A DNA stretch of 64,000 bases from an uncultured Prevotellaceae bacterium (lineage in GTDB: Bacteria > Bacteroidota > Bacteroidia > Bacteroidales > Bacteroidaceae): the NCBI GenBank assembly GCA_947167515.1, contig CAMVIM010000004.1, positions 1-64,000 of the forward strand. Reading direction: 5' to 3'. Both the position numbers and the translations under genes were made by a program. Below are positions 4,224-46,737 of the stretch, piece by piece. Position 1 is the stretch's first letter. Each line of letters begins with the position of its first letter. The notes beneath the pieces were generated by a model, which made no database searches, was not told the DNA's origin, and was given only the letters and a program-made list of their open reading frames with translations.

Positions 4224-4565
4224 ACCCTACTGACATAAAAGAAGGACCACCCGAACGGTTCTTCCACACCTCCCAAACCGACATCGACGACGTCGGTTTG
4301 CCGACATCGACGACATCGGTCAACCGACGTCGTCGATGTCGTTTTTGAGGCTGTGAAAGCACCCTTTCAGAGACTTTGCCACGAAGCCATCGGAGGCAAT
4401 GCCGTAAAACCACAAAGGGCAATGAGTTTATCGATGGAAAATTTTGCTGCTAAAGGGACTCTTCGTACCGTTGAACTGCTTTCGAAGGTACTCACGTTCG
4501 GAAAAACTCAAATAAATTTGGTTTTTCTCTCACTTAATCGTACCTTTGCGACCCAGAAAACGAAA
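4224..4565. repeat. Palindrome array plus promoter-bearing repeat
   Basis: There is no credible gene; the open frame through here lacks a plausible start. Three near-identical units built on CGACATCGACGACGTCGG lie at 4277-4341. The outer two form perfect 20-base inverted arms (4279-4298 and 4322-4341) followed by TTTTTGAGGCTGTG, so the array could end transcription of the thioredoxin gene. Downstream, 4482-4549 is a second repeat type that ends in a complete Bacteroidetes promoter and recurs, inverted, in front of dxs. Both copies have the same order: palindrome, TTTTGAGGCTGTG, then promoter module. Confidence 0.75.
4517..4548 (+). promoter_or_regulatory. Promoter of aldo/keto reductase
   Basis: TTTG (4517-4520), a 20-base spacer, then TACCTTTG (4541-4548) match the Bacteroidetes -33/-7 consensus TTTG and TAnnTTTG. 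Transcription should start near 4551, leaving a leader of about 15 bases. The promoter is embedded in a repeat shared with the dxs promoter. Confidence 0.8.
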
Positions 4566-6162: not shown

Positions 6163-7788
6163 TTGGAAACAACATCATCGCTGAAAGACAAGACTGCCCG
6201 TGGCTTCTTTTGGGGAGCCTTGAACAACGGAGCCATGCAGGTGCTGAACGCAGTGTTCGGCATCGTGTTGGCGCGTCAACTCGGCCAAGCTGACTATGGT
6301 CTCATCAACATGCTCACCGTTTTCTCATGGATAGCCATCTCCCTGCAAGACAGCGGCTTCGTCACCGCCCTGACCAACAAGCGCAATGCCACCCAGCACG
6401 ACTACAACGCAGTCTTCTGGTTCAACATCACGGTGAGCCTCCTCCTCTACATTCTCCTATTCCTTTGCGCACCACTCATTGCAGAGTTCTACCATGAGCC
6501 TATCCTCACCCCCCTCTCCCGCTACTATTTCCTCAGTTTCTTCATCGCCTCCTTCAGCATTGTGCCACGTGCCATCCTCTTTCGGCAAATCCGGCAGCGT
6601 GAACTGGCCATCATGACCCTTGTCGCCCTGTTTGTGTCTGGCATTGTAGGCATAGCGATGGCATACAACGGCATGGCTTTCTGGGGACTCGCCACCCAAA
6701 CCATCACCTACAACCTCCTTGTCAGCATCCTCAGTTGGGTGTTTGCAGCAAAAGCCCCCCTCTCATCCCCCCAAGGGGGGAAGATGCCATCCGGCGAGGT
6801 TCCCGATGATAAGACTCCCATTGACAAACACTCCGCATGGCTCCTCCCCCCCTGGGGGGACAAGAGGGGGGCTTCAGCCTTCTTCGCGCCTATTAAAGAA
6901 ATGTTCCCCTTCTCCTCCAAGATGCTCATCACCAACATTTTCATCCATATCAACAACAACATTTTCTCGCTCGTATTAGGCAAACTCTACACCAAAGTGG
7001 AAGTGGGCACCTACGCCCAAGCCAACAAGTGGAACATGATGGGCGCCTCCACCATCACAGGCATGGTGCAGGGTGTGGCACAGCCCACCTTCGTCCAGGT
7101 AGGCGATGATCTGAGCCGTCTGCGTAGAGCCTTCTCCAAGATGCTGCGCTTCACCTCCTTCGTCACCTTCCCCATCATGTTTGGCCTCGCCCTCGTCGCC
7201 CCCGAATTTATCACTGTCCTCATCACCGAGAAGTGGCTTTCCTCTGCCCACCTCATGCAACTGCTCTGCATCGGCGGCGCTTTCCTGCCCATCGCCACGC
7301 TCTACTACAACCTCATCATCTCGCGTGGCAAGTCCGATGTCTATATGTGGAATGTCATCGCCCAAGGTTGTGCCATCCTCGGAAGCATCCTCATGATATA
7401 TGCCCTTCCCGGAACACAAGATTCGTCCAGTGTGTGGACAGGCTCACTTCTCACTCTTCATTTTTCACTTCAGAGGATAGACCTCATGGTTATTGCCTAT
7501 GTCCTCGTCATTATCCTTTGGACAGGCATCTGGCATCGTTTCCTTGAGCAGGAAATCCATTACCCCTTCCTTTCAGCCCTGAAAGACATTCTCCCATTCC
7601 TCTTCATCGCAGCTGCCACAATGGGCATCACCTATTTCGTCACCCTGCCATTGGCAGCGAACTACAGCCCCCTCATCCTGCTCATCAGCCGCATCCTCCT
7701 TGCCGCCCTTATCTACCTCGGTACCCTCTGGCTCCTCCGTGCCAAAATCCTGAAAGAAAGCATCGGCTACCTCTTCAAGAAGAAGTAG
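6163..7788 (+). CDS. Polysaccharide flippase (Wzx/MATE-like, PST family)
   Basis: The 541-residue polytopic membrane protein opens with KTARGFFWGALNNGAMQVLN, the hallmark amphipathic start of the PST/WzxC flippase family. Fourteen or so membrane segments follow. It should move lipid-linked saccharide units across the inner membrane. The start codon is TTG; no upstream ATG exists and the N-terminal motif requires it. Two stretches look foreign: residues about 197-238 are encoded by a 123-bp GC-rich inverted repeat (41 codons, in frame), and residues about 427-437 (SLLTLHFSLQR) by a short copy of the TTCACTT-type repeat. Both fall in predicted loops. The flippase is thus lengthened but not broken. 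Confidence 0.87.
   Translation: METTSSLKDKTARGFFWGALNNGAMQVLNAVFGIVLARQLGQADYGLINMLTVFSWIAISLQDSGFVTALTNKRNATQHDYNAVFWFNITVSLLLYILLFLCAPLIAEFYHEPILTPLSRYYFLSFFIASFSIVPRAILFRQIRQRELAIMTLVALFVSGIVGIAMAYNGMAFWGLATQTITYNLLVSILSWVFAAKAPLSSPQGGKMPSGEVPDDKTPIDKHSAWLLPPWGDKRGASAFFAPIKEMFPFSSKMLITNIFIHINNNIFSLVLGKLYTKVEVGTYAQANKWNMMGASTITGMVQGVAQPTFVQVGDDLSRLRRAFSKMLRFTSFVTFPIMFGLALVAPEFITVLITEKWLSSAHLMQLLCIGGAFLPIATLYYNLIISRGKSDVYMWNVIAQGCAILGSILMIYALPGTQDSSSVWTGSLLTLHFSLQRIDLMVIAYVLVIILWTGIWHRFLEQEIHYPFLSALKDILPFLFIAAATMGITYFVTLPLAANYSPLILLISRILLAALIYLGTLWLLRAKILKESIGYLFKKK
6752..6874. repeat. In-frame GC-rich inverted repeat in the flippase gene
   Basis: The left arm AAGCCCCCCTCTCATCCCCC (from 6752) and the right arm ending GAGGGGGGCTT (6874) are inverted copies about 30 bases long with few mismatches. 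Each arm holds a smaller CCCCCC-AAGGGGGG hairpin. The element is 123 bp, a multiple of three, and adds 41 codons rich in Pro, Gly, Ser and Lys. It is related to the elements in rsgA and the HI0933-type gene. Confidence 0.75.
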
Positions 7789-11190: not shown

Positions 11191-12168
11191 ATGCACGGAC
11201 TCGTCATACGTAATACAGGGTATAGTTACACTGTCAAATCAGATGCGGGAGAGGTCTTTGACTGCAAGGTCAAGGGCAATTTCCGCATTCGTGGCATCCG
11301 CACCACGAATCCCGTGGCGATTGGCGACAAGGTGACCTTTGTGCCTCAAGATGTGGAGGGTGACATCGAACAGGCCAAGCAGGGACTCATCACGGAGTTG
11401 GATGACCGCAAGAACTACATCATCCGCAAATCAACGAACCTGTCGAAGCAGTCACATATCATCGCTGCCAATGTGGATATGTGTTTTCTGATTGTGACGA
11501 TTCAGCAACCCGAAACACCCCTCCAGTTCATCGACCGCTTCTTGGCAAGTGCTGAGGCATACAGTGTGCCCGTCACCCTCATCTTCAACAAGATTGACAT
11601 TGTTACAGAAGAGTGGCAAGACTATCTGGATGGGGTCATCAACCTCTATGAGACGATAGGCTATCCCTGTCGCAAGATCTCTGCCACTACAGGTGAAGGC
11701 GTGGAAGCCCTGCGTTCCGAACTGCAAGGCAAAATCACCCTCCTTTCGGGCAACAGCGGTGTGGGCAAGTCCACCCTCATCAACACACTCTTCCCCCACC
11801 TCCATCTGCGCACCAGCGACATCAGCGATGCCTACAACACAGGCAAGCACACCACCACCTTTTCGGAGATGTACGAAATTCCCTCCCCCTTGGGGGAGTC
11901 GGAGGGGGCTGTCGGCTACATCATTGACACCCCTGGCATCAAAGGCTTCGGTACCTTCGACATGAAGAAGGAAGAGGTCGGCCACTATTTCAAGGAAATA
12001 TTCCACTTTTCTGCCGACTGCCGTTTCAACAACTGCACCCACACCCACGAGCCTCATTGCGCTGTGCGCGAAGCCGTTGAACGTCACGATATCGCCGAAA
12101 GCCGCTACAACTCCTATCTTTCCATGCTCGAAGATGAAAACGAAGACAAATACCGCCCTGCATACTAA
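11191..12168 (+). CDS. rsgA: Ribosome small-subunit GTPase RsgA
   Basis: The 325-residue circularly permuted GTPase assists late 30S maturation. An N-terminal OB fold (about 1-70) precedes the G4 motif NKID (133-136), the P-loop GNSGVGKS (187-194), G3 DTPG (246-249), and a C-terminal zinc site (Cys277, Cys282, His284, Cys290). Between switch I (KHTTTFSEM) and G3 there is an unusual stretch, about residues 231-241 ([11 protein letters not shown]), encoded by an in-frame GC-rich palindrome; family members normally have a short turn here. Because it borders the GTPase switch it might alter the catalytic cycle, although no conserved motif is lost. Confidence 0.95.
11881..11913. repeat. 33-bp in-frame palindromic element in rsgA
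   Basis: CCTCCCCCTTGGGGGAG begins with a palindrome and continues TCGGAGGGGGCTGTC. It is 33 bp, eleven codons, and is nearly identical to 40957-40985 inside the HI0933-type gene; a related intergenic copy is at 63489-63512. Confidence 0.75.
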
Positions 12169-12279
12169 AGTGAAAAATGAAAAAGTAAAAGCGAAAAATT
12201 TGCTACCGCACTTGTTTGTTCGCTGGTGGTGTGTACTTGCGGTAGCAAATTTTTCACTTTTCACTTTTCCTTTTTCACA
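12169..12279. repeat. TTCAC-type palindromic repeat, copy A
   Basis: Perfect 18-base arms GAAAAATTTGCTACCGCA (12193-12210) and its complement (12238-12255) enclose a 27-base loop and are flanked by AGTGAAAA and TTTTCACTTTT tracts. The copy spans the 5 prime coding end of the TPR gene. Related copies lie at 13053-13170, 29419-29546 and 36627-36748. Confidence 0.8.
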
Positions 12280-13054: not shown

Positions 13055-13170
13055 AGTGAAGAAAGTAAAAATGAAAAGTGAAAAATTTGCTACCGTAATC
13101 GTGTGTCAACAGTTTTTTTTGAATGGTAATGGCATTTTTTCCACTTTTCATTTTTGTGTTTTCACTTTTT
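13053..13170. repeat. TTCAC-type palindromic repeat, copy B (degenerate)
   Basis: The left arm GTGAAAAATTTGCTACCG (13079-13096) matches copy A; the right arm is decayed (ATTTTTTCCACTTTTCATTT). It overlaps the last bases of the TPR gene and runs up to the tRNA-Asn promoter box. Confidence 0.7.
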
Positions 13171-21563: not shown

Positions 21564-21646
21564 CCTCAAAATCGGTCTGAGTCACACCCCTACCATAGGT
21601 GTGAGTCACACCCCCATCATAGGTCTGAGTCACACCGATTTTGAGG
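21564..21646. repeat. CCTCAAAATCGGT palindromic element, copy 2
   Basis: Perfect 13-base arms CCTCAAAATCGGT (21564-21576) and ACCGATTTTGAGG (21634-21646) enclose three copies of TGAGTCACACC. It is related to 33495-33559 (same CCTCA.AATCGGTC start and TGAGTCAC motif) and, by flank TTTTGAGGCTGTG, to 4277-4350. Confidence 0.75.
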
Positions 21647-28429: not shown

Positions 28430-29440
28430 ATGCCCCATCGCAACCATGCCTTCGACTTCCTGTGCGGCATCTGCATCATCCGTATGATTATGCTGCACGT
28501 CATCAGCACTTGCGGTTATCGCAGCGAGTTCTGGTTTGGGAAAGTGATGGCATGGTCGTTCTTTTTCATGTCTTTCTTCTTCTTCAAGGCGGGTTACTTC
28601 AACAAAGGCGTGGCGGGAAAGACGCTTCCCTATCTGAAAGATCGCACGAAGCGCCTGCTGGTGCCCTATGTGGTGTGGGGTGCCATCGGCAGCATCGTCT
28701 TCTTTGGTTTCCTGCTCCTTTTTCCCGACTCCTTTCAGCGTTACTACAAAATCCTGCGATGGGAACACCTGTGGCAAGACAGCCGCTTCTGGGGCAATCC
28801 GCCTGTCTGGTTCCTCTTCTCCTTCTGCGTGTGCTATGTGCTGGTACACTTCATCGGCAAGGTGAAATACCTGAAATGGGTGGCTGTCACCTTCCCCTTC
28901 ATCAGCTACTACCTGTGGACACAGCGCAACCCACTCTGGATGAGCCTCGACAACGTGTTCATGGGCATGTTCTTCTTCTATCTCGGACACGCCTGGCGAT
29001 GGGCGCAGACCCGTGTGCCCAAAGGGTGGCTCATCACCATCAGCCTGCTGCTCATAGCGGTGTTTGTGGTAAACAACAAACTCTGTCATGGCGAGTATGA
29101 CATGAGCCTCAACAAGTTTGTCAACCATCCGTGGGGAGCGGGCATCAACACCATCTGCGCCTTGGTGGGTTTCTCAGGACTGCTGCTCTCACTCCCCATG
29201 AAACGAGTTCCTGTCGTGGGCTACATCGGCGAACACTCCATGGTATATTTTGTCGCACACTATCCCCTCATCTTCCTGTACTCCTTCACCCACTTGGTGT
29301 TCCATCACAGCGTGGCGCACCGTTGGGAGGACTTCATCCTGATGATGCTCTTCATCCTCATCACCTGCACATGGCTGGTGCCCTATGTGGAGAAGGTGCC
29401 TTGGCTGTCGGGACGACTGAAAGTGAAAAAGGACAAGTGA
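28430..29440 (+). CDS. Acyltransferase-3 family membrane protein
   Basis: The 336-residue polytopic protein opens HAFDFLCGICIIRMIMLHVI and has about ten membrane helices, matching the Acyl_transf_3 family (OatA/NolL/WecH type) in its fucose-4-O-acetylase-like branch. Such proteins move acetyl or other acyl groups to extracellular glycans. The next gene is a close paralogue (same N-terminal motif, same C-terminal VPYVEKVPWLSGR), so this is a tandem duplication. The last codons and stop lie in the start of TTCAC-type repeat copy C. Confidence 0.85.
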   Translation: MPHRNHAFDFLCGICIIRMIMLHVISTCGYRSEFWFGKVMAWSFFFMSFFFFKAGYFNKGVAGKTLPYLKDRTKRLLVPYVVWGAIGSIVFFGFLLLFPDSFQRYYKILRWEHLWQDSRFWGNPPVWFLFSFCVCYVLVHFIGKVKYLKWVAVTFPFISYYLWTQRNPLWMSLDNVFMGMFFFYLGHAWRWAQTRVPKGWLITISLLLIAVFVVNNKLCHGEYDMSLNKFVNHPWGAGINTICALVGFSGLLLSLPMKRVPVVGYIGEHSMVYFVAHYPLIFLYSFTHLVFHHSVAHRWEDFILMMLFILITCTWLVPYVEKVPWLSGRLKVKKDK

Positions 29441-29546
29441 ATAGTGAAAAAAGAAAAGTGAAAAATTTGCCACCGCATATACTGTCAACCATTGGCGAAC
29501 TGCTGCGGTAGCAAATTTTTCACTATTCACTATTCACATTTCACTT
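29419..29546. repeat. TTCAC-type palindromic repeat, copy C
   Basis: Arms AAAAATTTGCCACCGCA (29461-29477) and TGCGGTAGCAAATTTTT (29504-29520) differ by one base. Flanks are AGTGAAAA runs and TTCACTATTCAC runs. It sits between two paralogous acyltransferase genes and abuts the promoter box of the second. Confidence 0.8.
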
Positions 29547-29554
29547 AAAATAAC

Positions 29555-29562
29555 TACCTTTG
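29555..29562 (+). promoter_or_regulatory. Promoter -7 box of second acyltransferase
   Basis: TACCTTTG ends five bases before the ATG at 29568, so the transcript would be essentially leaderless. It lies nine bases after repeat copy C. Confidence 0.65.
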
Positions 29563-29567
29563 CACCC

Positions 29568-33494: not shown

Positions 33495-33559
33495 CCTCAG
33501 AATCGGTCTATAGCATCGGTCTGAGTCACGCCCCATAGACACGTGTGACTCAGACCGAT
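33495..33559. repeat. CCTCAAAATCGGT palindromic element, copy 3 / possible bidirectional terminator
   Basis: ATCGGTCTGAGTCAC (33515-33529) and GTGACTCAGACCGAT (33545-33559) are perfect 15-base arms around a 15-base loop. Preceding CCTCAGAATCGGTC matches the left arm of the element at 21564. Its place between two convergent genes suits a bidirectional terminator, though no long T run follows. Confidence 0.7.
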
Positions 33560-36626: not shown

Positions 36627-36748
36627 TAAGTGAAAAGTGAAGAGTGAAAAGTGAAAAATTTAAGTTACTGTACTCTTTAAAAGTCTGTTTGATTACATGC
36701 CGCATGTGGGTAACTCAATTTTTTCACTTTTCACTCTTACTTTTTGCC
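36627..36748. repeat. TTCAC-type palindromic repeat, copy D
   Basis: AAGTGAAAAATTTAAGTTAC and its near-complement GTAACTCAATTTTTTCACTT are the arms, with GTGAAAAGTGAAGAGTG and TTCACTTTTCACTC flanks. The GCTACCGCA core of other copies is replaced. It fills the whole space between the divergent hflX and glycosyltransferase promoters. Confidence 0.7.
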
Positions 36749-36758
36749 TTAAAATCCG

Positions 36759-36766
36759 TACCTTTG
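36759..36766 (+). promoter_or_regulatory. Promoter -7 box of glycosyltransferase pair
   Basis: TACCTTTG lies 15 bases before the ATG at 36782, and so excludes the longer frame from 36644. Confidence 0.7.
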
Positions 36767-36781
36767 CACCCGATTTTTAAC

Positions 36782-38763: not shown

Positions 38764-40449
38764 ATGAAGAGATTTCGTCCTTCCAGACCTGAGCTGTTCT
38801 ACACGCTCAAGGATTACAACAAGCAGAAATTCACAGCCGATCTCATGGCAGGCATCATCGTGGGCATCGTGGCCCTGCCACTCGCCATCGCCTTCGGCAT
38901 CGCATCGGGTGTGTCACCTGAGAAAGGCATCCTCACAGCCATCATTGCCGGTTTCGCCATCAGCGCCTTCGGAGGTAGCCGCGTACAGATAGGCGGCCCC
39001 ACGGGAGCCTTCATCATCATCATCTACGGCATCATCCAGCAGTACGGACTCACGGGCCTCGCCATTGCCACCGTCATGGCAGGACTTTTCCTCATCCTGC
39101 TCGGTGTGCTGCGTCTCGGCACCATCATCCGCTACATTCCCTACCCCATCATCGTGGGTTTCACCAGCGGTATCGCCCTGACCATCTTCTCCACCCAAGT
39201 GAAAGACCTCCTCGGACTCCACATCGAAGGCTCCGTGCCAGCCGACTTCATCGAGAAATGGATATGCTACATCCAGAACTTCGACACCGTTGACCTCGCC
39301 ACCGCCATTGTAGGCGTTCTCTCCGTGGTCATTATTGCCTGCACCCCCCTCATCAGCAAGAAAGTGCCAGGTTCCTTGGTCGCCCTCATCGTCATGACCG
39401 TGGCAGGCATCATCATGACCGAGTATTTCGGCATCCACGTTGATACCATCGGCGACCGCTTCGACATCAACCCCGCTGTGCCCGAGGCCGACATCCCCGC
39501 ACTCTCATGGGATAACATCAAGGGACTCCTCTCCCCTGCCATCACCATCGCCGTGCTCGGTGCCATCGAGAGCTTGCTCTCTGCCACGGTGGCTGACGGT
39601 ATCATCGGCCACAAGCACAACTCCAACCAGGAACTCATCGGTCAAGGCATCGCCAATGTGCTCAGCCCCATCTTCGGAGGCATCCCTGCCACAGGCGCCA
39701 TTGCCCGCACCATGACCAACATCAACAACGGAGGCCGCACCCCCATCGCAGGCATCATCCATGCCGTTGTCCTCCTCCTCATCTACTTCTTCCTCATGCC
39801 CTACGCCAAGTACATCCCCATGGCCTGCCTGGCCGGTGTGCTGGTGGTGGTGAGTTACAACATGAGCGGCTGGCGCACCATCCGCGAACTCATGCACAAC
39901 CCCAAGAGCGACATCTTCGTGCTCTGGCTCACCTTCGGCCTCACCGTCATCTTCGACCTCACCATCGCCATCGAAGTGGGCCTCATGCTGGCCTGCCTGC
40001 TCTGCATGCGCCGCATGGCCGAAACCACCCAAGTCAGTGTGCTGACCGACGACGATGACATCGACCCCACCGCCGAGACCGACCTGGCCGAGAACCCCAA
40101 CATCGAGCATCTCACCATCCCCGAGCATGTGGAGGTGTATGAAATCAACGGCCCCTACTTCTTCGGCATCGCCAACAAGTTTGAAGAAGTGATGGTGCGC
40201 ATGAAAGAACGTCCCATGGTGCGCATCATCCGCATGCGCAAAGTACCCTTCATCGACTCCACCGGCATGCACAACCTGCAGAGCCTCATCGGCATGTCGA
40301 AGAAAGAAGGCATCCAGGTCATCCTCTCCGGCGTGAACGACTACGTACACGGCATCCTCACCAAGAACGGCTTCAACGAACTCATCGGCGAGAACAACAT
40401 CTGCCCCAACATCAACGTAGCACTCGAAAAAGCAAAGACATTCATCTGA
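38764..40449 (+). CDS. SulP-family anion transporter with STAS domain
   Basis: The 561-residue protein has a SulP membrane domain (about 20-420; GIIVGIVALPLAIAFGIASG, GGSRVQIGGPTGAF, FGGIPATGAIARTMTNINNG) and a C-terminal cytosolic STAS domain (about 455-560) with the IDSTGMHNL motif. It transports sulfate, bicarbonate or another anion by proton or sodium symport; the substrate cannot be assigned. Twelve to fourteen helices are expected. Its stop overlaps the next start (TGATG), coupling it to the flavoprotein. Confidence 0.93.
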   Translation: MKRFRPSRPELFYTLKDYNKQKFTADLMAGIIVGIVALPLAIAFGIASGVSPEKGILTAIIAGFAISAFGGSRVQIGGPTGAFIIIIYGIIQQYGLTGLAIATVMAGLFLILLGVLRLGTIIRYIPYPIIVGFTSGIALTIFSTQVKDLLGLHIEGSVPADFIEKWICYIQNFDTVDLATAIVGVLSVVIIACTPLISKKVPGSLVALIVMTVAGIIMTEYFGIHVDTIGDRFDINPAVPEADIPALSWDNIKGLLSPAITIAVLGAIESLLSATVADGIIGHKHNSNQELIGQGIANVLSPIFGGIPATGAIARTMTNINNGGRTPIAGIIHAVVLLLIYFFLMPYAKYIPMACLAGVLVVVSYNMSGWRTIRELMHNPKSDIFVLWLTFGLTVIFDLTIAIEVGLMLACLLCMRRMAETTQVSVLTDDDDIDPTAETDLAENPNIEHLTIPEHVEVYEINGPYFFGIANKFEEVMVRMKERPMVRIIRMRKVPFIDSTGMHNLQSLIGMSKKEGIQVILSGVNDYVHGILTKNGFNELIGENNICPNINVALEKAKTFI

Positions 40450-41651
40450 TGGCAACCAATCATCCGTGTTCCCTCGCCATCGTGGGCGGCGGTGCGGCAG
40501 GCTTCTTCCTGGCCATCAGCGCCAAGGAACTGATGCCCGAACTGGAAGTCACCATCCTGGAGCAGCAACGGAAAGTGCTGGCCAAGGTGGAGATTTCGGG
40601 CGGCGGACGATGCAACTGCACCAACACCTTTGCCGAGGTGAGCGACCTCCGGCAAGTCTATCCCCGTGGAGCCACCCTGCTGAAACGGCTGTTCAAGCAG
40701 TTTGGTCCTGCCGATGCCTACCGATGGTTCGAGGCGCATGGAGTGCCGCTCACCGTACAGGCCGACCAGTGCGTCTTTCCACAGGCACAAGACAGCCATG
40801 CCATCATCGACTGCTTCCTCCGCGAAGCCCGGAAACACGATGTCCGCATCCAGTTAGGCACCAAGGTGGAAGACCCCCAAGCCCTGCTGAGCAAGTTTGA
40901 CTTCGTGGCTGTCACCACAGGTGGCATGACACCCCACCAACACGCCGCATGGTCATCTCTCCCTCTTGGGGGAGTCGGAGAGGGCTGTGTGCCCAGCCTC
41001 TTCACCTTCACCATCCAGGATGCTGCCCTGACAGCCCTGCAAGGCATCGTGGTGGAGCATTCCATTGTTCACATTCCCTCCACCCCCTTCCGCTCCGAAG
41101 GACCTCTGCTCATCACCCATTGGGGCATGAGCGGTCCCGCCATCCTCAAACTGTCCAGCCACGCAGCGCGCCACTTGGCAGAACAGCACTACCAGTCGCC
41201 TCTGCTCATCAACTGGACAGGCGAAAGCAACACCGAGGAGGTGAGACAACACATTATTTATAACATAGAGACCAACGCCCAGAAACTGATTGACAACCTC
41301 CACCCCTACGGACTGCAAGCCCGCCTTTGGGCTTACCTGCTGAACAAGGCACAGCTGCAAGGTCGCCGATGCAACGAACTGGGCAAACGAGGCATCAACC
41401 GCCTGGTCGAGTTGCTGACCAACGACACCTACACCCTCGCTGGCCGCAGTCCCTACAAGGACGAGTTCGTCACCTGTGGCGGCATCCCGTTAGACAGCGT
41501 CGATAAGACCACCCTCGAATCAAAAACCACCCCACACCTCTTCTATGCCGGCGAAGTGCTCGACATCGACGGTGTGACTGGTGGCTTCAACTTTCAGGCC
41601 GCCTGGACCACGGCATACGCAGTGGCAAAGGGGATAGAGAAAAAAAATTAG
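40449..41651 (+). CDS. HI0933/BaiN-type FAD-dependent oxidoreductase
   Basis: The 400-residue flavoprotein starts with a dinucleotide-binding fold (LAIVGGGAAGFFLAI), carries the family motif SGGGRCNCTNT (50-60) and ends with TCGGIPLDSVD and FYAGEVLDIDGVTGGFNFQAA. Members include HI0933 and BaiN; their substrates are mostly unknown and annotation as bile-acid reductase would be premature. Residues about 170-180 ([11 protein letters not shown]) derive from the same GC-rich palindrome found in rsgA and occupy the place where relatives have a short Leu-rich segment before PSLFTF. The rest appears intact. Confidence 0.88.
   Translation: MATNHPCSLAIVGGGAAGFFLAISAKELMPELEVTILEQQRKVLAKVEISGGGRCNCTNTFAEVSDLRQVYPRGATLLKRLFKQFGPADAYRWFEAHGVPLTVQADQCVFPQAQDSHAIIDCFLREARKHDVRIQLGTKVEDPQALLSKFDFVAVTTGGMTPHQHAAWSSLPLGGVGEGCVPSLFTFTIQDAALTALQGIVVEHSIVHIPSTPFRSEGPLLITHWGMSGPAILKLSSHAARHLAEQHYQSPLLINWTGESNTEEVRQHIIYNIETNAQKLIDNLHPYGLQARLWAYLLNKAQLQGRRCNELGKRGINRLVELLTNDTYTLAGRSPYKDEFVTCGGIPLDSVDKTTLESKTTPHLFYAGEVLDIDGVTGGFNFQAAWTTAYAVAKGIEKKN
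40957..40985. repeat. In-frame palindromic element in the flavoprotein gene
   Basis: TCTCCCTCTTGGGGGAGTCG followed by GAGAGGGCT matches the rsgA element with a few changes. It is translated in frame. Confidence 0.7.
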
Positions 41652-46186: not shown

Positions 46187-46737
46187 AATGAGTTTGTAAT
46201 TAAAGAGTTAGTAAAAATAAAAAATTATAAAAAATTATATTCTTTCTCTGTCAAGGTAGTTTAGAGGCAGTTGAGCCTTTAATATCTTTAAGTAGTTTGG
46301 CAATTTGGGGGCAAAGTTACGGAGTAAGAAAGAAACAAACAAATTTTTTTTAAGTTTTTTTTTAGTTTTTTCCAAAATTCTTCAACAAAAAGAGTTTATA
46401 TGTTTTTGCTCATCTACTTGAAATGCTTTTTTCTTGCTCCTTCGCCGCCAAGGCGGCTTGGAAAAACAATAATTACCAATAATTGACAATAATTTTATCC
46501 AATAATTTATTGGAACCAATCATTTTTTTATATTCATGAATAATTCGTGGTTAATTCATGGGAATTTATGTTAAAATAAGACATGAATTATCACAAATTA
46601 GCCACGAATTATCATAAATTATTGGAACCAATTATTGGGAATTGTTGGGAATTATTGTTTTTCGAGACACCGCAAGGTGTTGAGAGCCAAAAACATTCTT
46701 GCTCCTTCGCCGCCAAGGCGGCTTGCCGCAATCAAAG
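46187..46737. repeat. Intergenic region with nested palindrome flanked by direct repeats
   Basis: No gene is seen. The promoter of the large secreted gene is at 46312-46319. Two identical 30-base direct repeats TTCTTGCTCCTTCGCCGCCA plus AGGCGGCTTG lie at 46431-46460 and 46696-46725. Between them is a palindrome with arms of about 60 bases (46462-46520 and 46605-46663, both based on AAAAACAATAATT) around a core, AATTCGTGGTTAATTCATG (46542-46560), that matches the core at 1590-1660. A small ACACCGCAAGGTGT hairpin follows. The arrangement looks like a non-coding mobile element. Confidence 0.7.
46312..46319 (-). promoter_or_regulatory. Promoter -7 box of the 1263-residue secreted protein
   Basis: TAACTTTG on the minus strand, about 125 bases ahead of the start codon. 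The long AT-rich leader shows no clear riboswitch. Confidence 0.6.

Follow-up and report, generated by a model that had tools for sequence, protein, structure and literature searches.

A palindrome translated in frame in rsgA of an uncultured Prevotellaceae bacterium is probably a one-end remnant of a mobile DUF559 nuclease element

The rsgA gene of an uncultured Prevotellaceae bacterium carries a short palindrome that is read as part of the protein. This raises the question of where such a sequence comes from and how it came to lie inside a housekeeping GTPase. The locus was studied in a window, the whole stretch of 64,000 nucleotides analyzed here, which belongs to a genome of 3.68 Mb that is 98.85% complete (G000). 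Two features are concerned:

11191..12168, plus strand: rsgA, ribosome biogenesis GTPase, ORF of 325 aa (RsgA_GTPase, PF03193, at 7.4e-52)
11881..11910, no strand assigned: half-element in rsgA, a DUF559-type left end in reverse orientation, in frame, giving a 10-residue peptide

The insert (CCCTCCCCCTTGGGGGAGTCGGAGGGGGCT, window 11881-11910, with the core CTCCCCCTTGGGGGAG at 11883-11898) is located between switch I and the DTPG motif of RsgA. An earlier note on this DNA had described a palindromic element that is translated, in frame, within an essential-type GTPase, and the ORF 11191-12168 with its match to PF03193 agrees with that description. The palindrome of 33 bp that it placed at 11881..11913 is indeed there and in frame, but the element ends at GGGGGCT, at 11910, and the rest is host sequence. 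The insert was also said to add eleven codons. However, the net gain is 7-8 codons when compared with the closest relatives (317-318 aa), because these have a few loop residues of their own at this place.

RsgA was sought in 61 genomes, including G000, and matched in 56. The alignment comprises 44 loci from 42 genomes, and a further locus (L067) gave no ORF by script. Close relatives were suspected to lack the inserted residues, and this is what the alignment displays, since 40 of the 42 genomes are without an element at this loop. Between switch I and DTPG, G000 and G002 are the only genomes with a palindromic insert, and that of G002 is a two-ended element. The loops between the two motifs are longer in G030 and G031 and are not palindromic, and palindromic inserts of other kinds are present in a loop of the OB domain in G003, G007, G014 and G035. 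In the solved relative 1u0l, a short stretch is aligned with the site of the insert, presumably a turn between strands.

The core recurs in the window. Allowing two mismatches, there are three matches at two places, the palindrome being matched on both strands at one of them, against 0.07 expected, and none of 100 shuffles reaches three. Recurrence inside another gene and between genes had been reported in the earlier note; copies inside genes were found (6753-6873 and 40945-40986), but the window scans gave no intergenic copy. These copies and their hosts are:

6163..7788, plus strand: polysaccharide flippase-type ORF carrying a two-ended element (PF13440, 1.6e-66)
6753..6873, no strand assigned: two-ended element of 121 bp with two right-type ends and the centre CCATCCGG...CCGCATGG, in frame
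40449..41651, plus strand: HI0933-like flavoprotein gene carrying a half-element (PF03486, 1.1e-54)
40945..40986, no strand assigned: half-element in the LPLGG frame, including part of the centre (CCGCATGG)

Other kinds of repeats are present in the same window. A second dispersed inverted-repeat unit, which is like AGTGAAAAGTGAAAAATTTG...CAAATTTTTCACTTTTCACTT and corresponds to the repeat families D2, D3, D4 and D6, was detected at 12168-12278, 29421-29567 and 36628-36771, and near 13055-13165. There is an exact repeat of 30 bases (TTCTTGCTCCTTCGCCGCCAAGGCGGCTTG) at 46431-46460 and 46696-46725, 265 bases apart, with a palindromic part (GCCGCC..GGCGGC). Repeats like CGGTCTGAGTCACACC are in tandem at 21571-21636, with a diverged copy at 33515-33556, and three diverging tandem units of 23 bases (CCGACATCGACGACGTCGGTTTG) occupy 4278-4346.

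When the search was extended to the complete genome, cores with up to one mismatch were found at 19 places in G000, compared with none for a reversed control pattern, so this DNA is far from single-copy. With up to two mismatches there were 46 strand matches, compared with 2 for the control. Seventeen of the 19 cores lie in ORFs, distributed over 15 genes, and thus display the dispersed in-frame occurrence that is a trait of the Rickettsia palindromic elements; the remaining two (L013 and L019) have no ORF of at least 80 aa across them. Hosts named by profile search are TopB, TrpA, CTP synthase, phosphoglycerate mutase and LeuS. Further hosts are a GHL10 glycosidase, a nucleotidyltransferase, DPP-IV and GH95, in addition to RsgA and the HI0933 flavoprotein of the window. 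SUF-associated and beta-glucosidase-like proteins also carry the core, with profile matches that are both below the curated cut-offs, while in a CobJ-precorrin-8X methylmutase fusion it lies in the linker. In one host (L007), an N-terminal CarbopepD_reg_2 domain alone was found, away from the element. RNase HII (L022) contains a further copy with two mismatches. If this copy is counted with the other 17, 16 of the 18 in-gene cores are read in one frame, TCC CCC AAG/TTG GGG GAG or near variants, which gives SPKGE or SPLGE, the exceptions being L015 and L016. At a chance of one in three for each core, such agreement would be expected about 2 times in a million, by a calculation by hand that treats as independent copies that are not. 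The peptide is hydrophilic in most cases and probably lies in a surface turn.

Peptides like that of the element occur beside DUF559 proteins, and for this reason DUF559 was examined. There was no match in G000, the genome of the window itself. Among 45 genomes of the genus, 25 have a DUF559 match, which is full-length in 22. From 42 matches in the genus, 30 were taken as loci, and three that are long or partial (L092-L094) were left out; at all 27 that remain, the DUF559 ORF is located between two palindromic ends. A formal inverted-repeat test, which compares fixed windows of 330 bases, was passed by 22 of the 27, and the five below its threshold (L081, L082, L084, L086 and L099) have two unlike palindromic ends by eye. 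Family 1 is below the threshold because its ends are unlike.

For the rsgA copy, the corresponding sequence is the left end of the DUF559 element located at argG|argC. Compared with the left ends of the DUF559 elements L081 and L099, 29 of 30 aligned bases are identical, with one gap of 2 nt (score 25, against a maximum of 15 in 200 shuffles each). Both ends of the flippase element match the right end of L081, with scores of 27 and 30 (shuffled maxima 13). The match of the flavoprotein copy to the left end is weaker than that of the rsgA copy, with a score of 20 against a shuffled maximum of 16 for L099, and 19 against 15 for L081.

A full DUF559 element has about 0.5-0.7 kb, with the endonuclease ORF between the two ends. 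The ends are mostly of the form AG(A/C)CC...GG(T/G)CT and in some cases GGACTC...GAGTCC (by eye), and there is a hairpin inside each end. Next to the ends, CCATNCGG and CCGNATGG are found in family 1 and in several other families. In short copies of about 80-120 bp the two ends are joined by internal deletion, and half copies of about 30 bp retain one end; copies also differ in spacing. From the flanks of the G000 copies, a form of some 80 bp can be read, AGCCCCC..-hairpin-..CCATCCGGATGG..-hairpin-..GGAGGGGGCT. G000 harbors a second family, with the ends CAGACCCTCCCCTCACCCTCCCTACAGGGAGGG, of which one copy folds as one long hairpin (z -11.3). Since the family-1 element folds little better than shuffled sequences (z -1.7, with 12 of 200 shuffles as good), our argument is based on the shared ends and not on energy. 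No match to Rfam at the gathering score was obtained at the elements.

The same arrangement was found far beyond the genus. A scan of species-genome contigs (84,980 species) gave at least 570 DUF559 relatives, of which the best 80 were used. Of these, 76 are titled as groups of Bacteroidota and four as Candidatus Colicola or Minthosoma, which belong to Bacteroidales; most are from rumen and gut Prevotellaceae/Bacteroidaceae. Nested-palindrome inverted repeats surround 72 of these best 80 Bacteroidota loci, compared with 1 of 185 control windows (median scores 30 and 9). DUF559 relatives were also detected in 37 of 72,556 plasmid records, 16 of which were analyzed, and DUF559 genes with annotated surroundings lie in operons, for example at sufB|sufC and paaD|paaZ, and in the hpa cluster. 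Outside Bacteroidota, 9 of 16 loci pass the inverted-repeat test, against 3 of 64 controls, and the passing loci belong to Sphingomonadales, Deinococcus and cyanobacteria. Of the others, two are weak (L180 and L194) and five have no inverted repeat (L182, L183, L187, L188 and L189). Phages were considered as carriers and set aside, as just 3 of 50,697 phage records contain a DUF559 relative.

Family-1 cores were found in 22 of the 45 genus genomes, in 1 to 50 copies, with 50 cores in G017. The 22 genomes with a full-length DUF559 hold more of them than the 23 without (one-sided p 2.8e-4, kinship uncorrected). Besides G000, four genomes have family-1 cores (1, 2, 6 and 12) and no full-length DUF559, and five genomes with a full-length DUF559 have no family-1 cores.

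A palindromic remnant is present at a gene start in G000 (L020, G000:C1:188885-191179, about 1501-1516), and in G013 (L077), apparently at the corresponding position, there is a DUF559 element. At the leuA|leuC junction (L087, L089, L095 and L139), the downstream gene appears to take its start codon and an N-terminal peptide from the right end of the DUF559 element, and the same appears to hold for a mnmA-like gene (L073, L074 and L079), these gene names being taken from sequence reading. Translation of the element at gene starts is therefore conceivable as well.

Nine genes that carry an element were examined in eight close relatives (50 loci), and empty alleles were read in eight of the nine. 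The exception is the SUF gene, where the script placed none, although 6 of 8 genomes have contiguous matches there. In the window, the flippase loop is empty in L239-L241 and occupied by a different subfamily in L238, and empty alleles of the flavoprotein gene are found in L243 and L244. In six of the nine genes, another genome has a different subfamily in the same loop. This is a clear element in CTP synthase (G026), CobJ (G020) and the flippase (G016), and, by eye, a half-element or fragment in the flavoprotein (G020), TrpA (G023) and phosphoglycerate mutase (G023). At some G000 sites the same element is also present in G017 or G026. Some 5-13 loop residues appear to be replaced by the elements, which blurs the insertion point, and no clean point was seen. 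Targeting need not be the reason why sites are re-used; loops may be permissive, or elements may exchange with one another.

The type of end follows the lineage of the nuclease. On the DUF559 tree (69 rows) it requires 24 changes, compared with a mean of 41.9 and a minimum of 36 in 300 shuffles, on a tree that is weakly resolved (119 columns, 37 of 77 inner branches open). With sites classed together when their downstream frames are similar, 13 were seen more than once, several of them with only two members, and 10 of the 13 need at least two arrivals on this tree. Examples are leuC, argC and a mannonate-dehydratase-like gene (names from sequence reading). Such re-used sites would lend indirect support to site-specific cleavage of the empty allele. 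A general target duplication was not found in the 70 elements, of 72, whose ends could be placed: direct repeats of at least 4 nt near the ends occur in 10 of the 70, compared with 8.9 expected from re-paired flanks, those of at least 5 nt in 4 (2.7 expected) and those of at least 6 nt in 2 (0.5 expected).

Whole elements were also found in frame. At seven loci, six among the best 80 (L128, L167, L169, L170, L173 and L174) and one of the genus (L082), the DUF559 domain lies within one long open frame together with the host domains. The hosts are six genes in all: GH31 alpha-glucosidase (L128 and L173), UvrA, RecG, an ABC-F-type ATPase, an aldehyde dehydrogenase-MaoC protein and a NAD epimerase. 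These frames are open throughout, in draft or metagenome assemblies. One locus (L168) was omitted from the list as its upstream frame looks spurious, and another (L139), in which DUF559 reads through into LeuC, was counted apart. In the seven long proteins, Pfam (E ≤0.001) lists the host domains and DUF559, with the related MTES_1575, and no splicing domain.

Structure prediction and profile comparison point to DUF559 as a putative nuclease of the Vsr/homing type. The model built from alignment A4 has a pLDDT of 87.1, and an alignment-free fold (pLDDT 66) was set aside. Foldseek matched the model to 3hrl (E 1e-6) and I-Bth0305I (3r3p, 1.5e-4), and weaker matches were obtained with an R2 retrotransposon chain, PvuRts1I and Vsr (1vsr, 0.015). 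The DUF559 profile matched the catalytic domain of I-Bth0305I (3r3p) at 3e-8. Fourteen positions are invariant in 47 aligned proteins, rows with stops being left out, and include E30, D58, E69, D71, H75 and D84; these conserved acidic residues and the histidine presumably fit a catalytic site.

Taken together, the comparisons make it likely that the rsgA palindrome is a non-autonomous one-end remnant of a two-ended DUF559 nuclease element, whose mobility we infer from comparison. The DUF559 protein, as a nuclease of the Vsr/I-Bth0305I type, would make a break or a nick, either in the target or in the hairpin ends, and repair would copy the element into the break in a homing-like manner. Small copies could be moved in trans, and those found in frame would be the survivors of selection; the in-frame position of the surviving in-gene copies can be explained by selection for open frames and for hydrophilic loops. 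As G000 has no DUF559 gene, the window copies must be non-autonomous derivatives, and its 19 copies are either orphans or were moved before a loss of the gene.

It is also conceivable, though we regard it as unlikely, that the palindromes came first and were spread by host replication and repair (template switching at hairpins), with DUF559 as a later settler in a safe haven. The many copies in G000, which has no DUF559, fit this order of events, as do four loci of other phyla with a palindrome on one side only, by eye (L182, L183, L187 and L188), and the REP and Rickettsia repeats inside genes that section 15 of PMC3733652 describes without such a gene. Against it, the type of end agrees with the DUF559 tree, with 24 changes compared with at least 36 in 300 shuffles, and the ORF is located between two ends at all 27 genus loci counted.

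A MITE moved by a DDE transposase encoded elsewhere would have the same anatomy of terminal inverted repeats and internally deleted copies. It is nevertheless very improbable, because the lack of a general target-site duplication in the 70 elements speaks against a DDE transposase, and around the DUF559 genes and solo copies examined DUF559 is the only gene found between such ends. We give still less credence to a REP sequence moved by a RAYT (Y1, HUH) transposase. The size, the hairpins and the paired inverted copies are REP-like, but the RAYT profile PF01797 has no match in G000 (98.85% complete), which speaks against this engine, whereas 5 of 14 control genomes match, and no GTAG or CGTC foot was seen by eye at the ends. 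RAYT was therefore rejected as the engine. A conserved protein loop or a recurring functional RNA hairpin, with no mobile DNA at all, hardly deserves belief. In its favor, the family-2 element folds far better than shuffles (z -11.3), and family 1 slightly better (z -1.7). Against it, relatives have an empty allele for eight of the nine genes examined, a different subfamily occupies the same loop for six of the nine, unrelated proteins contain the same DNA, and the elements gave no Rfam match at the gathering score.

The DUF559 element thus favored can be compared with known systems. The Rickettsia palindromic elements are short palindromic repeats found in frame in unrelated protein genes. 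A DUF559-type endonuclease is not known from them. The likeness to them proposed in the earlier note, which is one of behavior, holds for a repeated palindrome in frame in a housekeeping GTPase; it is incomplete in that the present repeat is one end of a larger two-ended element, has full-length relatives with a DUF559 nuclease between the same ends, and belongs to another phylum. REP hairpin repeats are tied to one DNA-cutting enzyme (RAYT). The present elements share such a tie, but their enzyme is a putative Vsr-type PD-(D/E)XK nuclease and not a HUH Y1 enzyme, G000 being without PF01797. I-Bth0305I, which belongs to the Vsr-like EDxHD family of homing endonucleases, has a homologous catalytic domain. 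Another common feature is that the DUF559 elements occupy the same gene sites in different lineages. I-Bth0305I differs from the elements described here, which have palindromic ends and small non-autonomous copies, show no splicing partner in the seven long proteins, and leave the DUF559 domain in the host protein or at a gene junction.

In the literature, PMC3733652 mentions the Rickettsia repeats RPE-1, -4 and -6 and other repeats inside ORFs, a location that REP-type repeats share with the present copies. The Caulobacter protein VsrA has a DUF559 domain and is treated, in PMC12907096, as an enzyme of mismatch repair that is linked to a cytosine methyltransferase; in contrast to the present case, the term "palindrom" is absent from the text of that paper. 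The MITEs of Porphyromonas gingivalis are similar by description, as non-autonomous inverted-repeat elements in Bacteroidales (PMC4596501). The earlier note knew of no Prevotella counterpart, and none was found in the openly licensed (CC) PMC literature. In this same literature, DUF559 is mentioned in 14 papers but in no title or abstract among them, and no title or abstract opening tied DUF559 to palindromic elements.

These comparisons point to what may be an unrecognized class of bacterial mobile DNA that would insert in frame into housekeeping proteins. With slightly more confidence than doubt, we suggest that DUF559, in at least four phyla, drives a class of elements that would home without an intron or intein, in which a nuclease gene lies between nested palindromic ends and the targets are gene junctions and, in frame, conserved proteins. 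Many GC-rich palindromes dispersed in bacterial genomes, and many SPxGE-like peptides in bacterial proteomes, may go back to its tiny derivatives. We know of no engine so far for palindromic elements that insert in frame into proteins. If the link to DUF559 is right, it would provide one for a bacterial set of such elements, with a testable enzyme, ends and empty sites. A widespread domain of unknown function, at times interpreted as a repair enzyme, would thereby gain a role, and there would be a way for selfish DNA to extend essential proteins by peptides, or even by an entire nuclease domain, with no need of splicing.
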